Shown: positions 16,759-31,400, numbered from the stretch's first letter. The stretch is DNA of 64,000 bases from Bacteroidales bacterium (GCA_017551515.1 JAFZLK010000107.1:1-64000), one strand, 5' to 3'. Notes: generated from the sequence alone by a model not told the origin. Program-made: numbers and translations.

Positions 16759-17328
16759 TTAGGTTTTGCTCGTACTTGTGAGTCCGCCCTTGTTGCCAAT
16801 TACGAACAGTTCCTTTGTGCCGTCATCGAGTATGTGTTCCACATATAATGGTTCGTTGAGTGTGAAGCGTTCGCAGAGGAATGAATCTCCAACTTTCAGT
16901 TTTGCATTTTCCGATTCGGTCACATCAAACCGATTGTCGCCTTTGTAGCAAAGTTTCAGTCTTCGGTTGGGATTCCAGCGGATTTCTACCTTGTTGTCGG
17001 CGGTCAATTCGTTCGAATACAACGATTTTGCTACCACTCGGTGCGACGACTGCACACTTTCGGTTTCGCAGTAGTCGGTTACAAAGGTTTCCCAGTCGGG
17101 AAAGCCAGTGAAGCGAGCCAAGACATCGAGCGTTGCGGTGCGTACCGATGCATAGCCATCTATGTAGCCCCAGATTCTTTTCAGCGTGGATGTGCTGACT
17201 GTTTCCTTCAATCGACCTTGTATTTCTCCCGACAGGAATATGAAGTCGGTGGAAGTCTTGATGCTATGGTCTGCCGACTCCGATACCAACTGGCGCAAAA
17301 GTGCAATATGTTGTGGATTCAATGACAT
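16759..17328 (-). CDS. HTH-like Bacteroidota-specific protein
   Basis: 189 residues. The N-terminal half (about 1-90) has a pattern common in Bacteroidota, LSGEIQGRLKETVSTSTLKR then IWGYIDGY...TLDVLARFTGFPDWETF, resembling a DNA-binding helical domain. The C-terminal half is beta-rich (about 110-189). Probably a regulator, but no function is assigned. Its -7 box TATCTTTG reads on the minus strand at 17361-17354. The 22 bp repeat at 17385 lies just upstream of that promoter. Confidence 0.65.
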   Translation of the reverse strand: MSLNPQHIALLRQLVSESADHSIKTSTDFIFLSGEIQGRLKETVSTSTLKRIWGYIDGYASVRTATLDVLARFTGFPDWETFVTDYCETESVQSSHRVVAKSLYSNELTADNKVEIRWNPNRRLKLCYKGDNRFDVTESENAKLKVGDSFLCERFTLNEPLYVEHILDDGTKELFVIGNKGGLTSTSKT

Positions 17329-17384
17329 ATTTCTTACATATAAAGTTTCGTGGCAAAGATAATACAGATTACAAAAGCTCGAAT

Positions 17385-17406
17385 GGTTCTTTTATGGTTC
17401 TTTATG
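17385..17406. repeat. left copy of 22 bp direct repeat around the DUF4143 ATPase
   Basis: Begins GGTTCTTTTATGGTTCTTTA and is identical over 22 bases to 18931-18952. It lies upstream of the promoter of the minus-strand gene ending at 17328. Confidence 0.75.
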
Positions 17407-17447
17407 TGTGTTCAATTAGTGGTTTTTATGTTATAGAAATAAATAGA

Positions 17448-17500
17448 TGTCAAAATGTTACAAAAAATAATAATTGTTGGTGTCAAAATATTACAAAAAA
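17448..17500 (+). promoter_or_regulatory. two 20 bp direct repeats with 33 bp period, putative operators
   Basis: TGTCAAAATGTTACAAAAAA (17448-17467) and TGTCAAAATATTACAAAAAA (17481-17500) differ at one base. The second ends four bases before the -7 box TATTTTTG at 17505-17512, so a bound protein would cover the -33 region of the ATPase promoter. Confidence 0.65.
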
Positions 17501-17504
17501 GTTG

Positions 17505-17512
17505 TATTTTTG
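17505..17512 (+). promoter_or_regulatory. -7 box TATTTTTG of the DUF4143 ATPase gene
   Basis: Matches TAnnTTTG, 33 bases upstream of the ATG. The -33 position is taken up by the operator-like repeat. Confidence 0.6.
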
Positions 17513-17545
17513 CTATCGATTTATTACAAATAAAATGATATTATC

Positions 17546-18877
17546 ATGATACAACGAACTGCAATACAATATCTTGAGAATTGGAGAAACTTTTTAGATC
17601 ACAAACCGTTAGTACTTCGTGGTGCTAGACAAGTTGGCAAGACTACTCTTGTAAATCAATTTGCCACAGGATTTGACACATATCTATATCTAAACCTTGA
17701 CCGTCGGCGAGACCGCAATTTGTTTGAAGAAGATGATATTCCAACTTTAATCGACAGAATACACATTCATTGTCGCAAACATAAGACCGAAGGAAAAACT
17801 TTGCTTTTCATAGATGAGATACAAAATTCTCCAGAAGCAGTCCGTTTGCTCCGTTATTTCAGGGAGGAAGCTCCTGAACTATATGTTATTGCCGCAGGTT
17901 CGTTGCTCGAAACACTGATTGACACACATATATCTTTTCCTGTGGGTCGCGTTGAGTATATGGCTTTGCGTCCTTGCTCGTTTGTCGAATTCCTAAATGG
18001 AATAGGCGAAGAGTATGATGCTCAAGTTGTTGCAGATTTATCTGCTGATGCCATACACGACAGGCTTATGAATCATTTTCTCAACTATGTGCTTGTCGGA
18101 GGAATGCCTGAAGCAATTGTGAAATATGCCGAACATAGGGATATACTGGCGGTAAACCCTATTTACAGCACCTTTTTGAACGCATATAGCGATGATGTTC
18201 AAAAATATGCACAAAATAAGACAATGGCAACCGTCATACGCCATATACTCAAGGAGGGGTGGACATACGCAGCGGAGCCTTTAAGTTTCAATAACTTTGC
18301 CGATAGCAATTATCGTTCTCGCGAAATGGGCGAAGCTTTTAGAACCATTGAAAGGGCTTTGTTACTTGAACTTGCTTATCCTGTGACTACAGAACAGATT
18401 CCGTTGATGCCCAATTACCGTCGAAAACCGAAACTATTATGGCTTGATACGGGTTTAGTGAACTATTATGCAGGTATAAGGAGCGAGATATTTAATGTAA
18501 ATGATATTATGTCGGTATGGAAGGGCAGGGTAGCCGAGCATATTGTAGCGCAGGAGTTGATAGCAGAAAACTTTGAGTTTGGCACTCGTCGCAATTATTG
18601 GGTGCGCGAAAAAGTTGACGCATCGGCAGAAATTGATTTTGTGTATAGGTTTGGTAACAAAATAATTCCAGTTGAAGTGAAAAGTGGTACCAATTCAAAA
18701 TTGCGTTCGTTGCACCAATTTATGGATAAGGCTCCTCACGACATAGCTGTGCGCGTATGGACTGGCAGGTTCTCCATCGATACGGTTAGAACGCCATCAG
18801 GTAAAGATTTTAGATTGGTTAACATACCATTCTACTATGTTGGACAATTGGACAAAATACTATCAAGATTACTGTAA
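17546..18877 (+). CDS. AAA_14/DUF4143 ATPase with nuclease-like C-terminus
   Basis: 443 residues, cytoplasmic. Walker A LRGARQVGKTTLVNQ (about 24-38), Walker B LLFIDEIQNS, sensor region VIAAGSLLE, then a winged-helix/DUF4143 part. The C-terminus has a PD-(D/E)XK-like core: AEIDFVYRFG then IPVEVKSG. This family is very common and mobile in Bacteroidota; some members behave as solitary defence or toxin-like genes, but the role is unproven. The gene has its own operator-like repeats and is bracketed by 22 bp direct repeats, so it looks acquired. A second member lies at 50889. Confidence 0.85.
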   Translation: MIQRTAIQYLENWRNFLDHKPLVLRGARQVGKTTLVNQFATGFDTYLYLNLDRRRDRNLFEEDDIPTLIDRIHIHCRKHKTEGKTLLFIDEIQNSPEAVRLLRYFREEAPELYVIAAGSLLETLIDTHISFPVGRVEYMALRPCSFVEFLNGIGEEYDAQVVADLSADAIHDRLMNHFLNYVLVGGMPEAIVKYAEHRDILAVNPIYSTFLNAYSDDVQKYAQNKTMATVIRHILKEGWTYAAEPLSFNNFADSNYRSREMGEAFRTIERALLLELAYPVTTEQIPLMPNYRRKPKLLWLDTGLVNYYAGIRSEIFNVNDIMSVWKGRVAEHIVAQELIAENFEFGTRRNYWVREKVDASAEIDFVYRFGNKIIPVEVKSGTNSKLRSLHQFMDKAPHDIAVRVWTGRFSIDTVRTPSGKDFRLVNIPFYYVGQLDKILSRLL

Positions 18878-18930
18878 TACAAACTAGTAAACTGGGAAAA
18901 ACAATTTTGAAAACAAAAATGCCAGAAATA

Positions 18931-18952
18931 GGTTCTTTTATGGTTCTTTATG
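18931..18952. repeat. right copy of 22 bp direct repeat
   Basis: Identical to 17385-17406; the two copies bound a unit of 1546 bases holding only the ATPase gene and its control region. Confidence 0.75.
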
Positions 18953-19041
18953 CGTTTTTTTTGCAATTGTATTGGTTGTACGCCTTTCTATTTGTAACGA
19001 ATATTGCTGATAATCAGCACAACAGCCACTTAAAATAAATT

Positions 19042-19071
19042 TTGTAGTTTTACTCTCGTTTCTTATATTTG
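19042..19071 (+). promoter_or_regulatory. promoter of the structured RNA (TTG-N19-TATATTTG)
   Basis: TTG at 19042-19044 and TATATTTG at 19064-19071 with a 19-base spacer, an exact consensus match. Transcription would begin near 19078. Confidence 0.75.
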
Positions 19072-19077
19072 CATTTG

Positions 19078-19281
19078 GTTTGGTTCGCCAAGCCGTACAT
19101 ATTGATTAACGAAGCGTTATGCTCGTCTTGTAATCGGGAACGTAGGAAATTTCTGAATTATAATGACAAGAGAGTATAAATGTTCGCGCATACAGCGTGG
19201 GCTATATATTACATCTACATTATAAGGTATTCCTACGACCTCCGATTAGAGAAGTGGTATATCAGTGCCACGCTTCTTTTG
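19078..19281 (+). ncRNA. ssrS: structured RNA, candidate 6S RNA
   Basis: A rod-like fold is visible: closing stem GAAGCGT (19111-19117)/ACGCTTC (19270-19276); a large internal bubble; TAATCGG (19131-19137)/CCGATTA (19242-19248); CGTAGGAA (19141-19148)/TTCCTACG (19230-19237); TTATAATG (19158-19165)/CATTATAA (19218-19225). The 3' side of the bubble can form its own hairpin GTGG...CCAC. A closing stem, central bubble with 3' hairpin and long apical stem is the 6S RNA layout, and the length of about 200 nt fits. A T-run follows at 19277. Identity as 6S is inferred; that it is a structured RNA gene is better supported. Confidence 0.6.
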
Positions 19282-19450
19282 TATAATTTGCCTATTTGGT
19301 GCTGGTGGGCAGAAAAATTAATTTTTAATGCTTATAAAGGTATAAAAAAGAACCAAATTAGAACCAGCGAAGTCTGATTTTTTTTATATTCTTTTGCGGT
19401 GAGAAATTAGATTGAATTAACAGTTTTATTAATATTTAAATTTTAATACT

Positions 19451-19753
19451 ATGGCAGAATTTAACATCAGCGGTCGTATGGCCGTAAAGAGCTTGAAAAA
19501 GCAGTTCAAGGAAGCTTTCGGAGCAACATTGAGAGTTTACAAGGGAAAACAATTTGCAGATGACGATGCAACATTGGCATCTATCCGCGTTGGCGACGCA
19601 AAGGGTGGCGAACTCAAGTGCGCAGGAAACCTCAAGGTTGGAAACTTCGAGAACAAGATGAAGGAATTGTTCGGCGTAACCGTACAGGTTGCCAACAAGG
19701 ACGACAGTGCTTTGGCAAGCAACGACATTACTATTGCGGCAGCAGGAAAGTAA
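19451..19753 (+). CDS. two-repeat 'ISG-NKK' family protein, first copy
   Basis: 100 residues, no signal peptide. Two halves of about 48 residues share the pattern (I/L)..G...(V/I)..(L/F)...F...FG..(L/V).V......D..(T/L)LAS: NISGRMAVKSLKKQFKEAFG then CAGNLKVGNFENKMKELFG. Related, better conserved copies lie at 21409 and 22105. Codon choice is biased to AAG, AAC and TTC-type codons, suggesting high expression (inference). Leader shares 19 bases with the ferredoxin leader. Function unknown; it opens the 14-gene cluster. Confidence 0.75.
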   Translation: MAEFNISGRMAVKSLKKQFKEAFGATLRVYKGKQFADDDATLASIRVGDAKGGELKCAGNLKVGNFENKMKELFGVTVQVANKDDSALASNDITIAAAGK

Positions 19754-19767
19754 TTGTTGATTTGATT

Positions 19768-19806
19768 AAAAGGTATGGGTGGATTATTGCACCTATACCT
19801 TTTTTT
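19768..19806 (+). terminator. intrinsic terminator after the gene at 19451
   Basis: AGGTATGGGTG pairs with CACCTATACCT across an 8 nt loop and is followed by seven T. It should make the first gene the most abundant product, with read-through into the rest. Confidence 0.75.
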
Positions 19807-19848
19807 GTAAAATTTTGTAAAAGTATAAACAGAATAAAATATTTCGAT

Positions 19849-20799
19849 ATGGCAGATAAAGTAAAAGTTTACGGAAAAAGTATGAAGTGGTCGGCAATGG
19901 GTATCATCGGTGCATACGTAAAGATGTATCCGCAGGCAACACTTGACGACCTTAACAAGGCGTTCCCGCGCAATAAAATACTTGGTAGCGATGGAATTTT
20001 GCTGGACACAATTGAAAATCTTCAGAAGAAAGCAGCAGCAACTACAAACACCGATTTCGACGACAATGTAATTAAGGAAGCCATCGACAAGGAATGGCTT
20101 GTTACTCTCAACGATGGAACCCGTGTTTGCTTCTATAATGTAATGTGGACTAAGGACAATTTCCCGAAAATAGTGGAACACGGAAAATTGTACGACATAG
20201 TAATTGCAGATTTCCAAGAAGCCGAAAAAGGTTTCGGCAAGCGCGGAAGCTACACACTCGAGTACCTCAATGGTTATGTTCCGCCTGCACCTAAGAAGCG
20301 TATTCCTATATGGGTGTGGATTCTCTTGGCTATAATTATAATTGCAGTAATAATCATTCTTGCACTGCGCGGATGCAGGGAACAGCAGGTTGTTGTACAG
20401 GAAAAGATTGTCAACGATACGGTTGTTATACACGATACCCTTTATGTACAGCAGATTGAAGAAATTGAAAAGAATTTCAATGCAGCCGAGTTCATACAAG
20501 GCAAGGCCGACCTGTCGGAAAGTGCAAAGTTCGTACTGCACGACTTGGCAAAGGTAATGCAGAAGAATCCGCAGCTTCGTTTGCGTCTCGAAGGACATAC
20601 ATCTGCAGAAGGTGATGCTGCTTTCAACCAGAAACTATCGGAAGCTCGCGCTCAGGCAGCCGTTGATTTCCTTATAAACCACGAAAGCATAGATGCATCG
20701 CGCCTTGAGGCTGTAGGAAAAGGCTCTTCGGAACTGAAGAACACCGATGACCCGATGGCATCGGAAAATAGAAGAACTGAATTTATTGTATTAGAATAA
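19849..20799 (+). CDS. membrane protein with cytoplasmic N-domain and periplasmic OmpA domain
   Basis: 316 residues. N-terminal globular domain (about 1-145) rich in charged residues, one strong membrane helix (about 151-173, IPIWVWILLAIIIIAV), a linker, then an OmpA-type peptidoglycan-binding domain (about 225-316) with LEGHTSAEGD, LSEARAQAAVDFLI, GKGSSEL and ENRRTEF. It would tie a cytoplasmic module to the cell wall through the inner membrane, an arrangement like MotB or ExbD-type anchors. I start at the ATG at 19849; upstream in-frame sequence overlaps the terminator. The N-domain is not recognised. Confidence 0.82.
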   Translation: MADKVKVYGKSMKWSAMGIIGAYVKMYPQATLDDLNKAFPRNKILGSDGILLDTIENLQKKAAATTNTDFDDNVIKEAIDKEWLVTLNDGTRVCFYNVMWTKDNFPKIVEHGKLYDIVIADFQEAEKGFGKRGSYTLEYLNGYVPPAPKKRIPIWVWILLAIIIIAVIIILALRGCREQQVVVQEKIVNDTVVIHDTLYVQQIEEIEKNFNAAEFIQGKADLSESAKFVLHDLAKVMQKNPQLRLRLEGHTSAEGDAAFNQKLSEARAQAAVDFLINHESIDASRLEAVGKGSSELKNTDDPMASENRRTEFIVLE

Positions 20800-20827
20800 A
20801 AATAAATAACAACTAAATTTAAAGAAT

Positions 20828-20959
20828 ATGGTACAGAAAACAAAAAGCGGAAAGGTGGACAAGCGCACCAAGGAAGGCAAGGAGATTGCCGCCCGTATGG
20901 CAAAGGCCCGCAAGGCAAAAGGTAGTTTAAAGAACAGATTAAAAAGATTGTTTAAGTAA
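20828..20959 (+). CDS. 43-residue basic protein
   Basis: Short ORF missed by size filters: ATG at 20828, stop at 20957-20959. About 40% Lys/Arg with no acidic cluster (KTKSGKVDKRTKEGKEIAAR, then MAKARKAKGSLKNRLKRLFK). It lies 28 bases after the OmpA-domain gene and 14 before terB-like. A similar role for basic peptides is played by the gene at 21858. It may bind nucleic acid or a membrane surface; function unknown. Confidence 0.6.
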   Translation: MVQKTKSGKVDKRTKEGKEIAARMAKARKAKGSLKNRLKRLFK

Positions 20960-20973
20960 AAAATTAGGAAAGA

Positions 20974-21390
20974 ATGAAGACTAGTATTGAAAACATAGCA
21001 ACATTCCTTGCTGCCGCAATTATGGCAGACGGTAAATATGATGAGGCTGAAAAAATAGCATTGGGTGAAATCGCTGAGGCTTTCGAGCTGAAGGAAGAAG
21101 AACTCATTAATGCTGTTGATGCAGAAATAGCAAATCAGGAAAAGCTCGCTGACAAGAAGTTGAAGGAACATCTCTGCGTAGCAAGCACTTTTGTAGAAGG
21201 CGAAGAGAACATGTATATCTTCGAGGCAGCACTTGAGTTGATTCTTGTTGACGGCGTGCTTACTGCCGACGAAGTTAATGTCATGTTCGATGTGGCAGAT
21301 GTTTTGGCAATCAGCCAGAGCGATGCAGTTCTTATGCTTGCCGATATGGCTAAGGAAGAACCAGAATTAGAGGTAAAAATTAATTGCTAA
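20974..21390 (+). CDS. TerB-family protein
   Basis: 138 residues, all-helical and acidic. The duplicated motif MADGKYDEAEK...EI and LVDGVLTADEV matches the TerB fold, whose paired acidic loops bind metal ions. TerB proteins belong to Ter-type stress-response modules that often occur near membrane and DNA-processing proteins. Cytoplasmic. In this cluster it sits between a membrane anchor and the two-repeat proteins, so it may act as a metal-dependent sensor or adaptor (inference). Confidence 0.75.
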   Translation: MKTSIENIATFLAAAIMADGKYDEAEKIALGEIAEAFELKEEELINAVDAEIANQEKLADKKLKEHLCVASTFVEGEENMYIFEAALELILVDGVLTADEVNVMFDVADVLAISQSDAVLMLADMAKEEPELEVKINC

Positions 21391-21408
21391 CATTTAAAAT
21401 TAAAGATT

Positions 21409-21789
21409 ATGGCTGGAATATCAGTTAATGGTAACAAGAAGATTGCTACTCTTCAAAAGGAATTCAACGAGCAGTTCCCATATTTGCAATTGTGCATTTT
21501 CTATAGTTATATGCGGAATGAGAAGTCAAAAACACAGCTTAGTGGAGACAAGACTTTGGCTTCTGTGCGTCGTGGAAATGGAACTGGCAAAATTTCTATA
21601 AGTGGGAACAAAAAGATTTCTTCTTTGGAAAAAGAATTCGACAAAGAATTCGGTTTGTATGCACAAGTTTGCTACACATCAAGTGATGGTAAGGGGTATT
21701 ATACTTCCGGTTCTTCAGATTTGATGACACTTTCTGCTTTCAACGAATTTTGCAAAAAGAACAAATGCAAAAAAGGCGTATGGAGATAG
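21409..21789 (+). CDS. two-repeat 'ISG-NKK' family protein, second copy
   Basis: 126 residues. Two halves: ISVNGNKKIATLQKEFNEQF with DKTLASVRRG, then ISISGNKKISSLEKEFDKEF with GLYAQVCY, a YYTSG strand and TLSAFN. Ends in a short Cys/Lys tail (KKNKCKKGVWR). Close paralog of 22105, including the DNA after the stop codon (both read ATAGTACGATAA then a terminator), so the pair arose by duplication of gene plus terminator. Family function unknown. Confidence 0.75.
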   Translation: MAGISVNGNKKIATLQKEFNEQFPYLQLCIFYSYMRNEKSKTQLSGDKTLASVRRGNGTGKISISGNKKISSLEKEFDKEFGLYAQVCYTSSDGKGYYTSGSSDLMTLSAFNEFCKKNKCKKGVWR

Positions 21790-21799
21790 TACGATAATT

Positions 21800-21830
21800 A
21801 AGCGGAGAGACTCAGGTTTCTCCGCTTTTA
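21800..21830 (+). terminator. intrinsic terminator after 21409 gene
   Basis: AAGCGGAGA pairs with TCTCCGCTT and a T-rich run follows. Confidence 0.75.
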
Positions 21831-21857
21831 TTGTATAAGCAAAAAAGATTTGAAAAA

Positions 21858-22043
21858 ATGAGATTGTTTCGGGGTTTGTCTTTTTCGTGGAAAAGAGCAC
21901 TGGGTATCAGTGGCCTGAAGACCAAGGTGGCTCGCAAGACTGGTATTCCAACCACAAGGGGAGGTATGGAACGCAAGGTTGGTAGAGCTGTAGTAAAGGC
22001 ACTCATGGGCAGTAAGACAAAAAATGGAAGAAAGAAAAAATAA
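21858..22043 (+). CDS. 61-residue basic protein
   Basis: MRLFRGLSFSWKRALGISGL opening, then KTKVARKTGIPTTRGGMERKVGR; about a third Lys/Arg. Small basic proteins of this look are common in Bacteroidota and Firmicutes mobile or accessory regions; none has an assigned function that I know. I start at the ATG at 21858 rather than an in-frame ATG at 21831 that lies in the preceding terminator. Confidence 0.6.
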   Translation: MRLFRGLSFSWKRALGISGLKTKVARKTGIPTTRGGMERKVGRAVVKALMGSKTKNGRKKK

Positions 22044-22104
22044 AAGGATATGTCTGCAGTCCTGAAGATGCGGGCGGAAAGGTAAAAACTTAAAAATTAT
22101 TATT

Positions 22105-22632
22105 ATGGCAACAACAACTAAAAAGACAACAACGACAAAAACTGCAGCAAAGAAAACCACTACGGCTAAGCCCGCTGCTAAGAAGACTACAACTACAGCT
22201 AAGCCAGCAGTAAAAAAGGCTGCTCCGGCAAAGACCGCAGTTGAAATTTCGGTAACTGGCAACAAGAAAGTATCAACCTTAAGAACTGAGTTTAATAAGA
22301 AATTCCCATATCTAAACTTATATGTATGTTATAGTTATGGAAGAGATCTGGTAAAAAAGGGTGAGACATTAAATGCAAGAATTCCAGATGATAAGACTTT
22401 AGCTTCTGTTCGCCGTGCCAATTCGGGTGGAGATATTTCTATCAGTGGCAACAAGAAAATCAAGAGCCTAGAGAAAGAGTTTGATACAGTATTTGGATTA
22501 TATGTTCAAGTATGTTATGAGAATAGTGACGGAAATAGATACTACACTAGCGGGACGGCAGATGAAAAGACTCTTTCTGCTTTCAATGCAGAATGTGAAA
22601 AGAACGGTTGCAAGAAAGGCGAATGGAAATAG
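22105..22632 (+). CDS. two-repeat 'ISG-NKK' family protein with histone H1-like tail
   Basis: 175 residues. Residues 1-46 are a low-complexity Ala/Lys/Thr/Pro tail (repeated AKKTTT and AKPA words) like histone H1 or bacterial Hc1-type tails. The rest is the two-repeat domain: ISVTGNKKVSTLRTEF, then DDKTLASVRRANSGG and ISISGNKKIKSLEKEF, GLYVQVCYENSDG, TLSAFN, and the Cys/Lys end. The tail should bind DNA or another polyanion. The repeats suggest length variation in the tail. Function unknown. Confidence 0.75.
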   Translation: MATTTKKTTTTKTAAKKTTTAKPAAKKTTTTAKPAVKKAAPAKTAVEISVTGNKKVSTLRTEFNKKFPYLNLYVCYSYGRDLVKKGETLNARIPDDKTLASVRRANSGGDISISGNKKIKSLEKEFDTVFGLYVQVCYENSDGNRYYTSGTADEKTLSAFNAECEKNGCKKGEWK

Positions 22633-22640
22633 TACGATAA

Positions 22641-22677
22641 ACAAGCGGAAAAAAACTTTGGCCTTCCGCTTGTTTTG
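22641..22677 (+). terminator. intrinsic terminator after 22105 gene
   Basis: ACAAGCGGAA pairs with TTCCGCTTGT followed by TTTTG. Paralogous to the terminator at 21800. Confidence 0.75.
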
Positions 22678-22708
22678 TATATGACAAAAAATAATAATCT
22701 AATAAAAT

Positions 22709-23257
22709 TTGTTTAATCTGTTTGAGGTGAATAATATTAAGCCAGTCGCGCAATTGCGACAACAAATACTCGACAGACATTTGGAAGTTGAGAAATGCTC
22801 TGGCATATATCGTTGGTGGTTTCCAAAAGACATCGCAGAAAATTTGCTTGCACATTTCAAAAGCACAATGCCGAAGAATAGTCAAAAATTACAGGAACGG
22901 AACATTGAAGGAACTCCGTATCTCACGTTATATTTTGGCATAAGTAGCAATATGCGTAGGCGAATACGCTGGCACATTTGCGGTCCGTTCAAGAGTTCTA
23001 CACTACGAAGGACACTGCGTGCCATTATCGCTCCAAAAGAGGATGACAAAGCAGCGGAAAAGATGGTAAACCAAATGATAGACTCTTGCTTCTGGGAGTG
23101 GGATTATACAGAGTCTGCAAAATTGGCAGAAGATCATGAAACAAAAGAACTTGCTCAAGAAAAGTATACATACCCACTAAATATCAGCAAGAACAACACG
23201 GTTACATCCGAATGTATTAAGGAGTTGAGGTGCATGAGAAAAGGCAATCAAAAGTAA
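22709..23257 (+). CDS. GIY-YIG-like protein
   Basis: 182 residues. SGIYRWWF (GIY strand), TLYFGISSNMRRRIRWH (the YIG-like strand followed by the catalytic-type arginines) and a downstream acidic helix match a diverged GIY-YIG nuclease core. The start is uncertain: TTG at 22709 gives the longest frame, GTG at 22727 is an alternative just after GAG; no ATG fits. Cytoplasmic. It is the first of two GIY-YIG-type genes in the cluster, which suggests DNA processing. Confidence 0.6.
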   Translation: MFNLFEVNNIKPVAQLRQQILDRHLEVEKCSGIYRWWFPKDIAENLLAHFKSTMPKNSQKLQERNIEGTPYLTLYFGISSNMRRRIRWHICGPFKSSTLRRTLRAIIAPKEDDKAAEKMVNQMIDSCFWEWDYTESAKLAEDHETKELAQEKYTYPLNISKNNTVTSECIKELRCMRKGNQK

Positions 23258-23297
23258 TGTCGAAAAGCCATTAATCGCAGGCAAATAAGAAAAAATT

Positions 23298-23540
23298 ATG
23301 AGTAAAGAATATTACAAGAAGAGAATTATTGACCTTCGCGCAAGTATGCAGAAGGAAAAGGAAGCTAAAAAACGCGATAATGAATATTATGCTAGATTAA
23401 TAAAGAGCGCAACAACTCCATCGTCAAAAGCATCTTACCGCAAGTCGAAAATTGACCATGCAGCCAGCCACGACCGCAATATCGAGTCGCTGAAACGGCA
23501 GATTGAAAGCGCAAAGGAATCGCTGAAGAGAGAAAAGTAA
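23298..23540 (+). CDS. 80-residue coiled-coil protein
   Basis: Highly charged, almost wholly helical (KKRIIDLRASMQKEKEAKKR and NIESLKRQIESAKESLKRE), consistent with a coiled coil. No family recognised. It ends 7 bases before the channel gene, so the two are likely translated together. Confidence 0.6.
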   Translation: MSKEYYKKRIIDLRASMQKEKEAKKRDNEYYARLIKSATTPSSKASYRKSKIDHAASHDRNIESLKRQIESAKESLKREK

Positions 23541-23547
23541 TAGAACG

Positions 23548-24342
23548 ATGAGAAAGTTTTTGGAGCGTATTTTCCTGAACGAGAAGTTCATATTTGCAGT
23601 AATACTTCTCAACGCCTTTGTGATATTTGCCGAGGAGAGCGAAATTGACAATCTTGCCCTGCAAATTACCGACATAGCGTGTACATTTATCTTCATTATC
23701 GAGATGATAGTGAAGCATATACACCTTGGATTCAAGGGATATTGGAAGTCGGGATGGAACAGGATGGACGGAATACTTGTGATTCTGTCGTTGCCGTCGG
23801 TGGCATCGCTGTTCTTGCCAAAGGTCGGAATAGACCTTTCGATACTGATGATTTTCCGTCTGTTGAGAGTGTTACGCTTCTTCCGCGTAATGCACTTTTT
23901 CCCCAATTTTACACAAATCATAAAGAATTTCAAGCTTGCAATGAAGCAGTCGTATGCAATATTGCTGGCGTTCTTTGTGATAATTGTGATTTTCGGACTT
24001 GTCAATTGCGCGTTGTTCAAGGAAATAGCTCCCGCCTATTTCTCAACTCCGCTCGATTCGATATATGCAATTTTCCAGCTTTTCACCGTGGAAGGCTGGT
24101 ATGAGATTCCAAATACAATAGCAGAAGCTACAAGTTCGACGATAGGCAGCCTTGTGAAGTTTTACTTCTGCTTGCTGCTCATATTGGGCGGAATCATTGG
24201 TATGTCGTTCATCAATTCAATCTTTGTCGATGCAATGGTAAGTGACAACAACGACGATGTAAAGCAAAAACTTGAGGAATTGGAAAAAAAGATTGACCAG
24301 TTGCTGGAAGAGAAAAATGAAAATAAAAATAATAGATTATGA
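23548..24342 (+). CDS. voltage-gated ion channel (NaChBac-like)
   Basis: 264-residue inner-membrane protein with six hydrophobic segments. S4 is visible as RLLRVLRFFRVM (about residue 104-115) with regularly spaced arginines. The pore filter is TVEGW (about 178-182), of the TxExW type found in bacterial sodium channels and in eukaryotic Nav/Cav repeats. The C-terminus is a coiled coil (LEELEKKIDQLLEEKNE), the tetramerising element of this family. Overlaps the next gene by 4 nt. Membership in a multi-gene accessory cluster is unusual for such channels. Confidence 0.85.
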   Translation: MRKFLERIFLNEKFIFAVILLNAFVIFAEESEIDNLALQITDIACTFIFIIEMIVKHIHLGFKGYWKSGWNRMDGILVILSLPSVASLFLPKVGIDLSILMIFRLLRVLRFFRVMHFFPNFTQIIKNFKLAMKQSYAILLAFFVIIVIFGLVNCALFKEIAPAYFSTPLDSIYAIFQLFTVEGWYEIPNTIAEATSSTIGSLVKFYFCLLLILGGIIGMSFINSIFVDAMVSDNNDDVKQKLEELEKKIDQLLEEKNENKNNRL

Positions 24343-24680
24343 GATATACATTTAAATCAACAACATCGGCCCTACTTGGCAACGGCAGAGGTGCAGATGT
24401 CTTTACTCCGTGGAATGTTATAATCGATACCGATGAGCAGACAATTACGCTCACAAAACGGAACAGGATAATGATTGGTGTTGACGAGGACACTATTGCA
24501 TTCCGCTTCATACGCCGTGTTACCATCGACCAGCATGTGTTTGGTGCCGACATTACAATAAAGGCCGTTGGTGGCACACTTACCGCATATAGTATGGACA
24601 AGAAGGATTGCAAGAAGATAAAGGAAATACTTATGGAGTACAATAATACGCGACGGAAAGGCGGAATTGTATTTGCGTAG
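24339..24680 (+). CDS. PH-like domain protein
   Basis: 113 residues. Beta-rich pattern (VIIDTDEQTITLTKRN, IAFRFIRRVTIDQ, ADITIKAVGG) ending in one helix (KKDCKKIKEILMEYN), which matches the small bacterial pleckstrin-like fold. No signal peptide. Coupled to the channel gene by an ATGA overlap, so it may regulate or bind the channel. Assignment is by pattern, not by a named family. Confidence 0.55.
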   Translation: MRYTFKSTTSALLGNGRGADVFTPWNVIIDTDEQTITLTKRNRIMIGVDEDTIAFRFIRRVTIDQHVFGADITIKAVGGTLTAYSMDKKDCKKIKEILMEYNNTRRKGGIVFA

Positions 24681-24699
24681 GAATAAAAAATAACAATAT

Positions 24700-25293
24700 A
24701 TGGCATTATTTAATAAGAATAAAGACAATGAGAAACCAATTGAACTTCCAACGGTTTCGGCAGAAGTGGTAAAGGCGCAGATAGAACAGAACTGCTATTT
24801 GGAAAGCGACGATATTGAAACTATGTTTGGCAAGTACGAGGCCTTGTGCAACCTTGATATGGAAAATTTAAACAAAGCACAGAAGGAAAAGGTTCATAGC
24901 GCAAAGTTGCTGTTTGTCAATAGTATTAAGTTGCCCAAGGAAGATAAGGAAGGTTTGCTGAACTTTATTGCGCATTCTTTGTTGTATGTGAGGACTTCTG
25001 CGTCTCAAGATGCACTGAAGTTAGCATCGAAAGTTGGTTTCACTGCATTGAAGACTGTTTCTGTTGCGGGCAAAATTGCAACATTGGGTATGGGAAGCAA
25101 AGTCCTGAACAATGTGGAAAAGGTCGCCAATAAGGCTATGACGACAGATGCGCTTGAACTTGTAAATGCATGGACTATAAAGATAGATTCGGCATTTGCA
25201 GCAGCAAAGAAACTTGAAGGCAGTTTCCTTAACAAGGATAAGGACTTTGCTGACAGACTGAATGACTTGAAGAAGCAATACGAAAATGCATAA
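24700..25293 (+). CDS. unrecognised helical cluster protein
   Basis: 197 residues, mostly helical, with a central Ala/Gly/Val stretch (FTALKTVSVAGKIATLGMGS) that might lie on or in a membrane. Lys-rich at both ends. I recognise no family. It is 19 bases after the PH-like gene and 134 before the GIY-YIG gene. Confidence 0.55.
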   Translation: MALFNKNKDNEKPIELPTVSAEVVKAQIEQNCYLESDDIETMFGKYEALCNLDMENLNKAQKEKVHSAKLLFVNSIKLPKEDKEGLLNFIAHSLLYVRTSASQDALKLASKVGFTALKTVSVAGKIATLGMGSKVLNNVEKVANKAMTTDALELVNAWTIKIDSAFAAAKKLEGSFLNKDKDFADRLNDLKKQYENA

Positions 25294-25427
25294 GTTGCGG
25301 TTATTACAATGCCCATAAATCCGAGGAATATACCAATGTCGCTGAGTTGCAAAACAGTTTTGAATTTGTAAAAACCTTAGTTTCAACCTTATGAAGTTGT
25401 TCCCGACACAAATCAGGATGATAGAAT

Positions 25428-26180
25428 ATGGCAAAATGTAGTATACAGGATTTTTCGCCGCGTACTGAGGAAGCATTGGCTTACTATGTCTATTTGCTGG
25501 TCGATCCGCGCGACGGCAAGATATTTTATGTCGGCAAGGGCAAAGGCGACCGCGTGTTTGCTCATTTGCGTTGCGCTCTTACATCTACAACAGAAACCGA
25601 CAAGCTTGACATTATCCGTAGTATTGTAAATGCAGGAATGGACGTGCGCTACTATATTGCTCGTCACGGAATGAAAGAAGACGAGGCTTTCTTGGTAGAG
25701 AGCGTACTTATTGACTTGCTGACTTTTAGCGATTTTGCATCGGTAGCCAACATTTCAAACATTCAGGCAGGGCATCACCAGTTCGACAGGGGAATAAAGA
25801 CCGCCGAAGAACTGGATGCATTGTATAATGGCGGAGAATTGGCAACAACTGACTTTGTTGACAAGATTATGACAATAAATATCAACGGAACATACGGACT
25901 CAACAACGAGCTGCGCCCGAATATCTATGAAGCTACGCGAAAGTATTGGAAACTGTCGCCAGAGCGTGCAAAACTGGTGCAATATGTGCTTAGCGAGTAT
26001 CGTGGAGTTGTAAGGGCCATATTCGTCCCGCAATCGTGGAGCAAATCAGAAAGCCGCTGGATGTTCGATGGCTATGAAATCACAGCAGAAAACAATCCTG
26101 AAATATACCACCGTTATATTAATAAGAGCGTTCCGAAGGTAAGAGGTATGGCAAACCCGATAAGGTATTTTAATGTATAA
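25428..26180 (+). CDS. GIY-YIG nuclease family protein (LEM3/ANKLE1-like)
   Basis: 250 residues. The N-terminal GIY-YIG core reads YYVYLLVDPRDGKIFYVGKG (about 15-36) followed by GDRVFAHLR, the form found in the LEM-3/ANKLE1-like branch, where the catalytic arginine and a later glutamate (FLVESVLID) are retained. The C-terminal half (about 140-250) is not recognised. It probably cuts DNA; target unknown. It directly precedes the KAP NTPase gene. Confidence 0.75.
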   Translation: MAKCSIQDFSPRTEEALAYYVYLLVDPRDGKIFYVGKGKGDRVFAHLRCALTSTTETDKLDIIRSIVNAGMDVRYYIARHGMKEDEAFLVESVLIDLLTFSDFASVANISNIQAGHHQFDRGIKTAEELDALYNGGELATTDFVDKIMTININGTYGLNNELRPNIYEATRKYWKLSPERAKLVQYVLSEYRGVVRAIFVPQSWSKSESRWMFDGYEITAENNPEIYHRYINKSVPKVRGMANPIRYFNV

Positions 26181-26219
26181 AACATCACCAAACGATTCTA
26201 AACAAAAAATAACATAACT

Positions 26220-27992
26220 ATGAAATCCAGTATAATTGATGTGCCTCGTAAATATTCGGAGGCTGATTTGTTTGGTATCCAGAAATACCAGAATGCATTG
26301 ATAAAGTTTATAAGGCTCACCGACACGCCAATCACAATAGCCTTGCAAGGTGAATGGGGCAGCGGAAAGACTTCGCTTATGAACCAGCTCCGCTACGAGT
26401 TGTGCGACAAGGACGATGCTCCGTATTTCTCTGTGTGGATAAACACTTGGCAGTTCTCGCTTATGAAAACGCCGTCGCAGGCAATTATGAGCATACTCGA
26501 AGGATGTATAAACCAGATTGGTGCGCTCAACCCTAACGAACACAAGTGGGACGAGAGCAAGAAGAAAATCGGCGGCATCTTTAAAAAAATGGCTTCGGTT
26601 GGCGCAAAGGTGGCTGCCAGCACTGTTGGTGTTGACGGTGATGTGGTTGAGGGTCTGTTCGGCGGCGAAAGTTCCGAATCAGACATTTTGCAACTGAAGG
26701 GCGAAATTGCAAAGCTGATTGACGAAGCTCTGAAGTCAAATCCATCGAAGGTTGGCTTTACCTTCTACATTGACGACCTTGACCGTATCGACCCACCGGT
26801 AGCCGTGGAAATACTGGAACTTCTGAAGAACATATTCGACCTTGACAAGTGCGTATTCATCCTTGCAATCGACTACGACGTGGTAATCAAGGGGTTGAAA
26901 TCGAAATTCGGCGAACTTACCGACAAGAACGAGCGTGAGTTCCGTGCATTCTTCGACAAGATTATCCAGTTACCGTTCTCTATGCCAGTTGCTTCGTACA
27001 ATGTTGATACTTTCCTAGTTGATGCATTGCAGAAGATAGAGTTCTTTACATCGAAGGAACTGGAGGATGAAACCTTGGCAGAAAACCTTAGCGAAATCGC
27101 TCGTCTCTCTGTAGGTTGCAACCCGCGTTCGCTGAAACGACTGAGCAATACGCTGTCGCTTATTTCCATCATCAACGAGGGCGATGACGATAACGAAGAA
27201 AATGATACCAATTCTGCACAGACCAAGCTTATAAACTTTGCGCTTGTATGTATGCAGATTGCTTATCCGTTTGTTTACAACCAGTTGGCAGAAGAACCCG
27301 ATTTCAAGAAGTGGAACGAGGGCATTGCCGCAAAGTTGAAGTTGCGCCATCTGACGGAAGAAGAAAAGGAAAGTCTTAATGCTGCCGATGAATTCAACGA
27401 AGAGTGGGAAAAAGTTTTGTTCCGTATGTGCCAGAAAGAGACATACCTTAGTATTCGCGCTTTCCAAGTTTCGGGACTGCTCAACAAAATAGCCGAAATA
27501 ATTAACAACGATGAAAACTTGGGAGAGATAGTCGAATCTGTTATTGCACTTTCGGCTGTTACCAACTTGAAGGCATTCGATAGTACACCTCAAAATAAGA
27601 GAAAAGTAAGTCAAGCTGCTAATGATATTATTGTTTTCTTTGAAAAATTCGTTGCTGATTTGAAACCATCCATTCCGTCAATTAAAGCAGCCAAAGGTAA
27701 GACATACGGCAGAATATACGACCGCAATGGCTATTTTGGAACAAGATTCCTCTGCTCGCCAAAAGATAACTCCTTCACTTTACAGATATATACAGAAAAT
27801 CGAGATATGGTGGAAAAGTTTAATACTTTAACTAATACTGAATTGAGCAAATATCATTTTAATTACCATCTTGGAAAGAAAAACCAGAATCTTCATAAAT
27901 GGGAAGCTCAATTAGATGGCGATTATCGTGTAGATACAGAGAATATTAAGCAGGCTTGCATAGAGTTTTATAATGCGGTGGTAAAATTGTAA
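26220..27992 (+). CDS. KAP-family P-loop NTPase
   Basis: 590 residues. Walker A GEWGSGKTSLMNQL (about 43-56), Walker B FYIDDLDRIDP (about 181-191), with SVWINTWQFS and CNPRSLKRLSN as expected for KAP NTPases of the STAND class. Residues 115-150 hold a small Gly/Ala-rich insertion where KAP proteins often carry membrane helices; here it is only weakly hydrophobic. The C-terminal 100 residues form a separate domain. KAP NTPases are membrane-linked switches and occur in several anti-phage systems. Last gene of the cluster, followed by a terminator. Confidence 0.85.
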   Translation: MKSSIIDVPRKYSEADLFGIQKYQNALIKFIRLTDTPITIALQGEWGSGKTSLMNQLRYELCDKDDAPYFSVWINTWQFSLMKTPSQAIMSILEGCINQIGALNPNEHKWDESKKKIGGIFKKMASVGAKVAASTVGVDGDVVEGLFGGESSESDILQLKGEIAKLIDEALKSNPSKVGFTFYIDDLDRIDPPVAVEILELLKNIFDLDKCVFILAIDYDVVIKGLKSKFGELTDKNEREFRAFFDKIIQLPFSMPVASYNVDTFLVDALQKIEFFTSKELEDETLAENLSEIARLSVGCNPRSLKRLSNTLSLISIINEGDDDNEENDTNSAQTKLINFALVCMQIAYPFVYNQLAEEPDFKKWNEGIAAKLKLRHLTEEEKESLNAADEFNEEWEKVLFRMCQKETYLSIRAFQVSGLLNKIAEIINNDENLGEIVESVIALSAVTNLKAFDSTPQNKRKVSQAANDIIVFFEKFVADLKPSIPSIKAAKGKTYGRIYDRNGYFGTRFLCSPKDNSFTLQIYTENRDMVEKFNTLTNTELSKYHFNYHLGKKNQNLHKWEAQLDGDYRVDTENIKQACIEFYNAVVKL

Positions 27993-28023
27993 AAAATCAC
28001 ATTCGATAAACATTATATCCCCC

Positions 28024-28054
28024 ACTCCCGTTTTTAGAAAGGCGGGAGTTTTTT
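28024..28054 (+). terminator. intrinsic terminator after the KAP NTPase gene
   Basis: ACTCCCG pairs with CGGGAGT, followed by six T. It closes the cluster. Confidence 0.8.
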
Positions 28055-28165
28055 GTGTAGTTTAGAGCACATATTCCTATCATAAGCATATTGATTATGG
28101 CATATTTACGTACCGAAATATTTAGAAGAGATTTCTTCATATTGGAAAGTATTATTTATGTTTTA

Positions 28166-28201
28166 AAAGTTGGTCGGCGGAGAGATCTGCCGACTTTTTT
28201 T
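28166..28201. terminator. second terminator-like hairpin
   Basis: GTCGGC (28173-28178) pairs with GCCGAC (28189-28194) and seven T follow. No gene precedes it directly, so it may be a remnant or end an unseen small RNA. Confidence 0.5.
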
Positions 28202-28240
28202 AGCAACAAAATATGAAAAAATGAAATGTTTTGGGAATAT

Positions 28241-28271
28241 TGTAGGGTTAGGTTTCAAACCTGACCCTACA
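28241..28271. repeat. 31 bp palindrome TGTAGGGT...ACCCTACA
   Basis: Near-perfect hairpin in the 3' gap between the cluster and the alpha-2-macroglobulin gene, same style as the palindrome at 5076. Confidence 0.6.
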
Positions 28272-28308
28272 ATTTATTATTCGTATTCAGATGCTGTCTT
28301 TCATTACC

Positions 28309-28341
28309 AGATGCTGAAACAAGTTCAGCATTCCTTTTTTT
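28309..28341. repeat. dispersed hairpin containing GAAACAAGTTC
   Basis: ATGCTGAA and TTCAGCAT pair around ACAAG. The core is the reverse complement of GAACTTGTTTC at 59740, a word typical of dispersed Bacteroidota hairpins. A T-run follows, so it may also end transcription. Confidence 0.55.
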
Positions 28342-28347
28342 AGAAAC

Positions 28348-28408
28348 GCCGCAGGCATAGAAACGTGCAGCACATTGAAACGGCGAAGCCATTCAAACTG
28401 GCGCAGCC
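28348..28408. repeat. array of four 9 nt mini-hairpins
   Basis: GCCGCAGGC (28348), GTGCAGCAC (28365), GGCGAAGCC (28382) and GGCGCAGCC (28400) are each a 3 bp stem with a 3 nt loop, about 17 bases apart, separated by AGAAAC/TGAAAC/TCAAAC words. The array ends two bases before the stop of the alpha-2-macroglobulin gene. Confidence 0.75.
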
Positions 28409-28410
28409 TA

Positions 28411-31400
28411 TCATTCTACCGTTACCCTAATTCCTTTGCTATGGCTTGTGTATTCGGGTGCATACATGCTCTGGATGGTGGTTATGCCGTTTGAGAAGTT
28501 ACCCTTCTGTGTGGCAATAACCTGATATTCGAACACATATGTTCCCTTTGGCAGAATGTCGATGAAGAAGTTGACAGATGCGTCCTTTATTGCCTGATAG
28601 TAGCCAAGGGCATTCTTGAACCTGTATCCCGAAAGTTTTTCGGTTGGCTCGAATGCCGAGGCACGCATATCCTTCAGGTGGACATATTCCATGTTGCGGT
28701 CAACTTCGATTTCGATGCGGACTGTTACCTTGTCGCCGACCTTGAGTTTTGCATTCTTCTGCGTAATTGGTACGATGACTTCCTTGCCATTTTCCACGCG
28801 GTTGACAAACAAATCCTTGCGAATCTTCAGCGGAGTGTCCTCGAAGCCTTTTATCTTGTCGATGTCCTCGTAGTACTGCCAGTAGATGCTTCCCCATGCA
28901 ACTGTGCTATCTGCCTTCGTTACCGAAACATCACTCCACGACTTTGAAATTTCGTCCTTCTTCCACATTTTCTTGTAGTAGCCAGTGCCTTCCTCGGTCT
29001 TTTCAGTAGCAAGGTCTATCATTTTTGTGCCAAGAGTGATTTTCGGATAGTCGGTATTGGTCAGGATGGTTTTGCCATCGAGCATCAAAGCATATACGGC
29101 TTCGGCAGTTGCCTTTGTGCTCTTCCAGCGGTTGGTTTGCTTTTGTTTTAGCAACCAGACTTTCATGTCGTTAACATCCTGATGCTCGCCCATTTCCTCG
29201 AAAAATTCAATAAGCAGTGCTTGAGTTTCGATACCGCTGTTGTACCAGTACCAACCGCGCTCCAAATCCCAGTACATTCCAAGTTCTTCGCTGTGCTGCG
29301 CGTATTCCTTCAACGATGCCACAATTGCCTTTGCAGTTGCGGTACGACCACTACGGTTCATTGCAAGTCCAAGCATTCCGCGCATGTAGAAACCACAACT
29401 AACCCATTCTTTTTCGGCAAGTTTCATATAGTCATCAAAGACTTTCTTTTCGCTCTTGTCCAACGGATAATCCTTTAAATAGAATGAGCGAACATAAAGG
29501 TAATGTATCTGCAAGTAGCCAAGTGTCAGGTGCTTGTCCTTCATTTGCCAGTTGTAGATTTCACGAATTTCGCGGTCGGTGTACTTAATGGCTTTCTTAA
29601 TCATGCCTTCCATCGACGAATCGGGGAATTTCACGCCAAGTTTCTTCAAATGTCCGTAGTTACCAACAATATGTTGGGTTACATACAGGTTTTCCTTCAT
29701 TCCATCGAACCAAGGCCAACCGCCGTTTGGCTTCTGCATCTTCGATAGCTTTTCGGTGGCTTTCTTGGTTTCCGCCTTTATGCGGTTCATATCGAACAGG
29801 ATACCAATGTTTTGCTTGCATTCGGCTTCACTTTCAGCATCGAGGAGCCACGGTGAATTTTCGAGGATTACTGCTTTAAGTTCCTCGTTGCGCTGCAGGT
29901 TCGACTTCATTGTTTCTGCATCGGTATTTTTCCATGCCTCGAACATGGTCTTTATCTTCGGGTCTGAATTTGCTACGTGCGAAGCGATGAGGTTGGAATA
30001 AATGCGCGAGAAAGTCTGTTCGGCACATTCGTATGGATATTCCATCATGTATGGCAGCGCAAGCACTGCGTACCAGGCAGGATTTGAAGTAAATTCGAGA
30101 GTATAAGAGTAGTTTTCAAGCGTATTGGAATTGTTGTCCTTCATTGATTTGAACGAGAAGTTGGTTGTTCCTGCACGGCGAACTGGCAACGGCATAGTTT
30201 CGGTTACCATCATGCGGTTGGTAAGTATCGGCAATACTTTTTCCTCGCCATCTGAATGACCGTCGGCTATTGCAACGATTCGCGCCGAAACAGAACCCAA
30301 ACTCATTGGAACATCAATTTTCCATTCTACCGAAGTGTTGCGATTTGCATCGGCACTAAACGAAACCATATTGTTTTTCAGGAACTTGCTTGTTATATCA
30401 TCGGAATTTTCGGTACTGATGAATTCAATTTTCGCCTTGCCTGAAATTGCATTTTCGGTCATGTTTGCAATCTTAGCCGAAATGTACATTTCATCGCCTT
30501 CACGCATAAAACGTGGCAGATTTGGCGTTACTGAAACCTTCTTCTGGGTTATTATGCTTTGGCTGGTACTGCCGACCTTCATGTCGCTTGTGTGGGCAAG
30601 TCCGAACATGTTCCAGCGTGTGAGACTTTCGGGCATTGTGAACTTGATGAATATATTGCCGTCCTTGTCGGTAACAAGGTCGGATGCAAAATATGCAGTC
30701 TCGTTGAAGTTGGTACGCACCTCTGCATTGTCAAATGCTTCGCTTTCCTCCTCCGAAATCTCAAGTTCAGCAGCTTCGTCATAAACGGCGGCATCGTTTG
30801 AAGCTAGTTCGCTCTTCAATGCGACTTCCTCTTCAACAACAGCACCTCCTGCTGCGTTTGCTCTATATAGCACGCGACCAGACTTATAATCAGTGGTATA
30901 TGCCGAGTAATATGCGTTTATCGCATTGAAGAAATAAGGTTCTGGATAAGGTGTGATTTCGTAAGTCGTTTTTGGATAGGCATATTCGTACCAATGTCCG
31001 CCTTCGCTCTCGAAACCTGTTGACCTGAAATTGTAATTGGTGTAGTTTGACGAATACGGCCATAATCCCCACGAATGCGATGCGTAGGAATCGAGCGAAG
31101 CATCGTAAATGGTTGCTGCAAGTTCCGCATCGGCGGGTTTGCCGTTCTTGTCGGTAATCTTTATCTGCCACGATTCCTCTGATCCAGGCAAGGTCTTGTC
31201 GCGGAAAGTAACGAGGTCAACATCGAGTTGCTTGTTCTTGCGCTCTACGCTTATAGTCTTGTTGCAGGAGAATGACTTGCCGTTGCGGACGAATATTGCC
31301 GTAATGTTGACGTTTCCGTAGCATTTTTCGGTGATTGGAATCTCGATGTCCTTGATTTCGTTGCTAATGTCAATGGTCTTTACATCAAGTTTATCCTTGC

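Follow-up and report, generated by a model that had tools for sequence, protein, structure and literature searches.

Zorya defence systems combine an inner-membrane protein bearing an OmpA-type peptidoglycan-binding domain with an ion-conducting protein and nucleases. We analyzed a cluster of 14 plus-strand open reading frames (ORFs; 19451-27992, intergenic gaps -4 to 134 nt) that likewise has an OmpA-type anchor, an ion-conducting protein and nucleases, within a 64,000-nt stretch of DNA from a rumen-type gut Bacteroidales bacterium (JAFZLK010000107.1:1-64000, hereafter the window; coordinates are counted from its first letter). The channel here is of the Ion_trans type, however, not MotA, the anchored protein g2 matches ZorB through its OmpA domain alone (4e-6), and the window proteins scanned with PADLOC gave no ZorA, ZorC or ZorD match, so we do not class the cluster as Zorya. 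Ter-dependent stress systems also place TerB in a predicted membrane-tethered complex, as in the cluster, but the cluster proteins that were scanned with Pfam did not match TerC, TerD or TerY. TerB is likewise part of the Shango and Bunzi defence systems (PMC10952713), but a PADLOC scan of window proteins showed no other Shango or Bunzi component, and the cluster belongs to neither. The NTPase g13 matches the KAP NTPases PifA (6.5e-31) and QatA (1.1e-19) in PADLOC. It is not part of a QatABCD system, given an NCBIfam QatA score of 74.5 bits against a cut-off of 600 and no match to QatB, QatC or QatD, and KAP is optional in the cluster, unlike in PifA and QatABCD. The cluster follows the same logic as the nucleoside triphosphate-dependent conflict systems with effector-associated domains (EADs) described by Kaur et al. 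(2020, PMC7159879), where neighbouring genes carry copies of one small domain, joined to various effectors: two domains, here called rep and the N-domain, are duplicated in adjacent genes and fused. Rep, however, is a duplicated alpha/beta domain absent from the libraries searched, and the cluster proteins gave no Pfam or NCBIfam match to vWA, MoxR or VMAP, which sets them apart from the named EAD families. A literature search for TerB with KAP (and with OmpA and GIY-YIG) found no paper describing the set, nor did the PADLOC scan find such a system, in agreement with a first-pass annotation of the window that knew of none.

The cluster is probably a new modular phage defence, in which a constant set of scaffold, anchor and switch proteins accompanies interchangeable DNA-cutting enzymes. 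We rate it as new at the level of the assembly, with known parts as its cargo. Its genes and hairpins, all on the plus strand, are as follows.

19451..19753, plus: g1, stand-alone rep-domain protein, 100 aa, with a duplicated beta-alpha-beta unit
19767..19807, plus: internal terminator-like hairpin 3' of g1 (-20.4 kcal/mol)
19849..20799, plus: g2, N-domain (~aa 4-139), transmembrane (TM) segment (~154-172) and OmpA peptidoglycan-binding domain (1.3e-17)
20828..20959, plus: g2b, basic protein, 43 aa, with a DKRTKEGK motif; conserved, adjoins TerB in several loci
20974..21390, plus: g3, TerB, 138 aa (PF05099, 1.2e-6)
21409..21789, plus: g4, rep-domain protein, 126 aa (by the rep hidden Markov model)
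21800..21827, plus: internal terminator-like hairpin 3' of g4
21858..22043, plus: g5, very basic protein, 61 aa, net charge +18
22105..22632, plus: g6, K/T/A-rich H1-like tail and rep domain; same architecture in L033, L035 and L051
22636..22674, plus: internal terminator-like hairpin 3' of g6
22709..23257, plus: g7, GIY_YIG_2 nuclease-fold protein, TTG start, cargo (PF20815, 5.2e-17); relatives in the L040 and L124 clusters
23298..23540, plus: g8 (s80), coiled-coil protein, 80 aa, the most constant partner of rep
23548..24342, plus: g9, voltage-gated cation channel (PF00520 Ion_trans, 3e-32; S4 RLLRVLRFFRVM, pore TVEGW)
24339..24680, plus: g10, 113 aa, perhaps a bacterial PH-like protein (PF14470 match under the cut-off, E=0.014); relative in L048
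24700..25293, plus: g11, 197 aa, no family; seen in the window alone among the compared loci
25428..26180, plus: g12, CMoRE/PD-T4-3-type GIY-YIG nuclease, cargo (LEM-3-type GIY-YIG, 2.5e-15; PADLOC 1.5e-46; PDB 9u75/9u7u, ~3e-32)
26220..27992, plus: g13, KAP P-loop NTPase (PF07693, 4.7e-36; Walker A GEWGSGKT, Walker B FYIDDLD)
28024..28049, plus: terminal intrinsic-terminator-like hairpin

The ORFs bear out the 14 same-strand genes with short gaps or overlaps of the first-pass annotation, and the Pfam matches above cut-off (OmpA, TerB, GIY_YIG_2, Ion_trans, LEM-3-type GIY-YIG and KAP) agree with the domains that it had named, including two GIY-YIG-type proteins. Its terminator is present at the end of the run, but the run is not free of hairpins, with others 3' of g1, g4 and g6. 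The histone-H1-like tail that it had described stands as a K/T/A-rich N-terminal tail on g6, but the match to HC2 (E=0.0014) is below cut-off. Rep, g8, g5, g11 and the N-domain were each run against a set of libraries, and none matched a curated family there; for rep (g1) the libraries included Pfam and NCBIfam. For RNA elements there was no Rfam match. In the whole host genome, TerB has only two matches, and KAP has only two strong ones.

Relatives of g1 were found in 8 of 61 genomes of relatives, in 9 of 395 genomes of the phylum and in 22 of 393 of the order, as well as in a named collection, where 21 contigs, the majority from rumen or gut Bacteroidales, had one (L and G numbers are our handles for loci and genomes). 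Gene clustering placed rep in 49 loci, s80 in 24 of these, a long channel in 17, N-domain/OmpA proteins in 14, a C15 peptidase in 12, TerB in 11, basic g5-type proteins and KAP in 10 each, and an outer-membrane-type protein and a 445-aa lipoprotein in 9 each. Among the recurring members, rep, g8 and the N-domain are near-constant; the others are TerB, channels, KAP and tiny basic proteins. Fifteen of the 393 genomes of the order carry s80, and 14 of these also carry rep, which is present in 22 of the 393 (p=2.5e-19, kinship of the genomes ignored); the search started from s80, not rep, and the test is therefore not circular. The sole s80 gene in a rep-negative genome (G712, L136:10267-11349) adjoins a uracil-glycosylase-like protein, with the contig end ~4 kb off. 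The N-domain was found in 23 genomes and is shared with rep in 12 of them (p=3e-11). The set is far above chance, with neighbourhoods conserved in many Bacteroidota and a patchy distribution among genomes, and that the conserved genes form a real module is next to certain. Co-occurrence in other genomes had been set beforehand as the test by which the first-pass annotation could fail, and the genes do co-occur.

Two members that the annotation had counted on are less regular. It had KAP couple a putative sensor of membrane stress or phage, the channel with the OmpA anchor, to the effectors. As a general rule this does not hold, since most g8 loci lack KAP (present in at least 9 of 26, the contigs being incomplete). 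Channels do recur, but the short type of g9 has a close relative in L034 only, and a longer channel is found elsewhere.

The enzymes at equivalent positions, adjoining rep or s80 genes, differ between loci. The cargo of the window includes CMoRE/PD-T4-3 (g12), with a second copy in the L049 cluster, while L040 carries a PvuRts1I-like SRA nuclease (Pfam 3.6e-31; PADLOC 4.7e-80) and L044 carries UzuA (PADLOC 3.5e-63), with genes of the same family (c30) in L045 and L107. L108 has a PD-(D/E)XK nuclease (PDDEXK_4), L109 an AAA_21 ATPase and L032 a PARP-like protein, the last by a weak match (E=0.0026). A literature search on Uzume found no relevant paper. We are confident that cargo is exchanged between clusters. 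PADLOC matches at E<1e-10 were obtained for 5 of 20 cargo genes and 0 of 10 cluster-flanking control genes, a difference that is not significant (Fisher p=0.14); the case for defence rests on the identity of the cargo enzymes, not on the number of matches. Because cargo at the same positions is related to characterised anti-phage nucleases, the defence role proposed in the first-pass annotation gains support, albeit indirect, and we consider such a role reasonably likely.

CMoRE is a type IV anti-T4 nuclease shown by experiment to act on phage DNA containing 5-hydroxymethylcytosine (5hmC) or its glucosylated form (5ghmC) (PMC12923530), and PD-T4-3 is protective in a native host (PMC12409345). 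The match of g12 extends across aa 5-209, a whole-protein family match (PADLOC 1.5e-46; PDB 9u75, 2.8e-32), and the tyrosine triad of the GIYxY-YIG motif (Y20, Y22, Y34) is aligned with the published 12-residue spacing kept. We predict that g12 is a modified-cytosine-dependent nuclease of the CMoRE type. It differs from CMoRE/PD-T4-3, a single-gene type IV restriction nuclease, in being part of a multi-gene cluster and in its acidic autoinhibitory loop, where DDDD is replaced by TSTTETDK. The acidic loop occurs in most but not all CMoRE members, so it is not strictly defining, and a CMoRE mutant in this loop cleaves host DNA and is toxic (PMC12923530). With the loop lost in g12 and the CMoRE loop mutant toxic, it would follow that a cluster partner restrains g12 or that its loop works differently. 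The g12 homologue of L049 retains DDDE in the acidic loop.

The two-repeat protein of the first-pass annotation is rep. Its halves align with each other as an internal duplication (hhalign probability 95, E 1e-8), and an AlphaFold2 model of g1, the structural prediction that the annotation had suggested, forms beta-alpha-beta twice (predicted local distance difference test (pLDDT) 86.7; predicted template modelling score 0.72). Foldseek searches of the PDB with this model returned weak ubiquitin-like (UBL) matches, the best being ISG15 and other UBLs (E 0.02-0.8). Over its full length, the g1 fold also resembles uncharacterised jumbo-phage proteins, from phages of Erwinia and Serratia (Foldseek probability up to 0.98, but a low TM-score of ~0.5). 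The N-domain model (pLDDT 86.7) gave low-probability winged-helix (MarR/La) matches only. In various loci rep is fused with BspA-type leucine-rich repeats, TerB-like segments, H1-like tails or the N-domain, and the N-domain is common to OmpA anchors, rep fusions and KAP C-termini. That different products of one locus have modules in common argues for their physical association, and the occurrence of the N-domain in several product types is what would be expected of interacting parts. Solitary N-domain/TM proteins without rep occur in other Bacteroidales (L158:9535-10521, L159:9322-10341, L160:9559-10659, L161:9605-10765), with an OmpA match in L158 and L159 and a weak one in L161.

The internal hairpins are almost confined to rep-containing genes. 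Among internal genes of 23 s80-containing loci, a terminator-like hairpin lies 3' of 16 of 51 rep genes versus 3 of 143 others (Fisher p=3.7e-8). Two of these three are genes for N-domain and rep fusions, which brings rep-containing genes to 18 of the 19 internal hairpins. Hairpin sequences diverge strongly between lineages while the position is retained. This suggests partial termination that would make rep proteins more abundant than downstream products, like major structural subunits; alternatively, the hairpins may protect mRNA ends or mark cassette boundaries.

We propose that the constant part would be an abundant cytoplasmic scaffold of many rep-domain proteins and the g8 coiled coil, which N-domain/TM/OmpA proteins would fasten to the peptidoglycan and the inner membrane. 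TerB, the gated channel and, in a subset, the KAP NTPase would associate with this scaffold, and rep fusions with the H1-like tail, together with the tiny basic proteins, would probably hold DNA. Interchangeable nucleases would be docked in the frame, here CMoRE, which would be dependent on modified cytosine, and the GIY_YIG_2 protein. The anchored scaffold would capture phage DNA as it enters at the envelope and pass it on to the docked nuclease for cutting, with KAP, TerB and the channel gating the activity; a new cargo gene in an unchanged frame would alter the specificity. We judge it an evenly balanced matter whether what we see is a version of an anti-phage cluster of Bacteroidota that is modular and horizontally patchy, with a scaffold and swappable nucleases. 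The scaffold mechanism itself is put forward tentatively, somewhat below that level. The same caution applies to the idea of a new class of immunity, in which a peptidoglycan-anchored and possibly beta-grasp-like rep scaffold, made in excess by means of attenuator hairpins, may dock swappable nucleases and capture DNA.

The cluster lies in a variable chromosomal site (15349-28411) that extends from kinase, c4 and AAA_14 genes to an alpha-2-macroglobulin gene on the right side and differs in content in sister genomes (L146-L149). The features to the left of the cluster are as follows.

15349-16758: Ser/Thr kinase
16759-17328, minus: c4 gene, ~190 aa, no Pfam family
17546-18877: AAA_14/DUF4143 ATPase
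19344..19404, plus: leader or promoter-proximal element 5' of g1; blastn matches in L146, L148 and L151, and the collinear leader of L147

Homology between G022 and the window extends to 19445, immediately 5' of g1, and so the leader is kept and the operon is different. Between G022 and the genome of the window, the cluster and a lipoprotein module have traded kinase/c4 sites; the lipoprotein module is at this site in G022 and at another kinase site (C72) in the genome of the window. The same site in sister genome G013 (L148:2586-10230) holds a different TerB/channel module, comprising a DnaJ-type Zn-finger protein with a TerB-like C-terminus, an Ion_trans-like channel, a TerB-like protein with a zinc ribbon, and SPFH-like and GYF-like proteins, names that were assigned by inspection, not by library search. 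The ~60-bp leader element recurs 5' of unrelated operons in sister genomes (L146:5571-5631, L148:10595-10662, L151:203-264). Kinase/c4 pairs recur two to four times per genome beside variable gene content (window 15349-17328; L150-L156). We rejected the pair as a system component, as it flanks unrelated variable content too and hence marks a hotspot.

Several observations weigh against a dedicated defence scaffold. Solitary N-domain/OmpA proteins stand beside housekeeping genes, and the N-domain is thus not exclusive to the cluster. Most of the cargo checked (15 of 20) had no known defence match in PADLOC at E<1e-10. Elsewhere, a single gene suffices for enzymes of the CMoRE, UzuA and PvuRts1I types, so they need not rely on a scaffold. 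The C15 peptidase, outer-membrane proteins and lipoproteins that recur beside the core resemble envelope biology, and divergent rep genes in other bacterial classes (L073, L075, L076, L078) lie near universal-stress-like proteins (c17). CBS-domain-like and LOG-like genes are also found near these rep genes. The last points, together with the TerB/channel/SPFH-like module of G013 at the same site, would fit a Ter-like response to envelope or DNA stress, in which the anchor, channel, TerB, C15 peptidase and outer-membrane proteins sense envelope damage, the nucleases serve repair or nucleoid protection, and any anti-phage effect is secondary. We regard this as unlikely, since none of the best-matching nucleases is a repair enzyme (they are UzuA and the modification-dependent restriction enzymes CMoRE and PvuRts1I-SRA), and since cargo turns over between relatives.

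The differing content of the hotspot in sister genomes, the swapping of modules between two kinase/c4 sites, and the presence of c4 in 13 of 26 g8 loci despite two to four such genes per genome could also mean that there is no single system, and that a variable site beside kinase/c4 pairs gathers unrelated defence and stress genes. This is decidedly less likely still, because the same members, in similar order, are met in many families and at unrelated sites (beside dnaK in L122 and a MurB-like gene in L107), and because N-domain and rep modules are common to different gene products within one locus. The ISG15-like folds and weak UBL sequence matches would be expected if rep were a bacterial ISG15-like modifier in Bil-type conjugation. 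We rejected ubiquitin-type conjugation as highly improbable: no E1, E2 or JAB partner was recognised in the Pfam results for the clusters, the fold matches are weak (TM-scores <0.5), each half of rep is a beta-alpha-beta unit that lacks the first hairpin of a UBL, and rep usually terminates in -AAGK/R, not diglycine. We give an equally slight chance to the cluster being left over from a prophage, a plasmid or an injection device, which the patchy distribution, the many small basic proteins and the likeness of rep to jumbo-phage proteins might suggest; searches of INPHARED, PLSDB and IMG/VR found no relative of g1, IMG/VR held none of g8, and PHROG matches are few, and we rejected a phage, plasmid or viral origin on these grounds.

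To our knowledge, the effector is fixed in the majority of multi-gene phage-defence systems. In the modular anti-phage cluster that we favour, the frame, made of unnamed proteins, appears to stay constant while the nucleases that it hosts vary, some of them being well understood. If this is true, a restriction nuclease that is encoded by a single gene can become part of a larger machine anchored in the membrane, which perhaps also controls it; several protein families would be defined that the searched libraries do not hold; and rep, g8 and the N-domain would provide a search key for new anti-phage enzymes carried as cargo.

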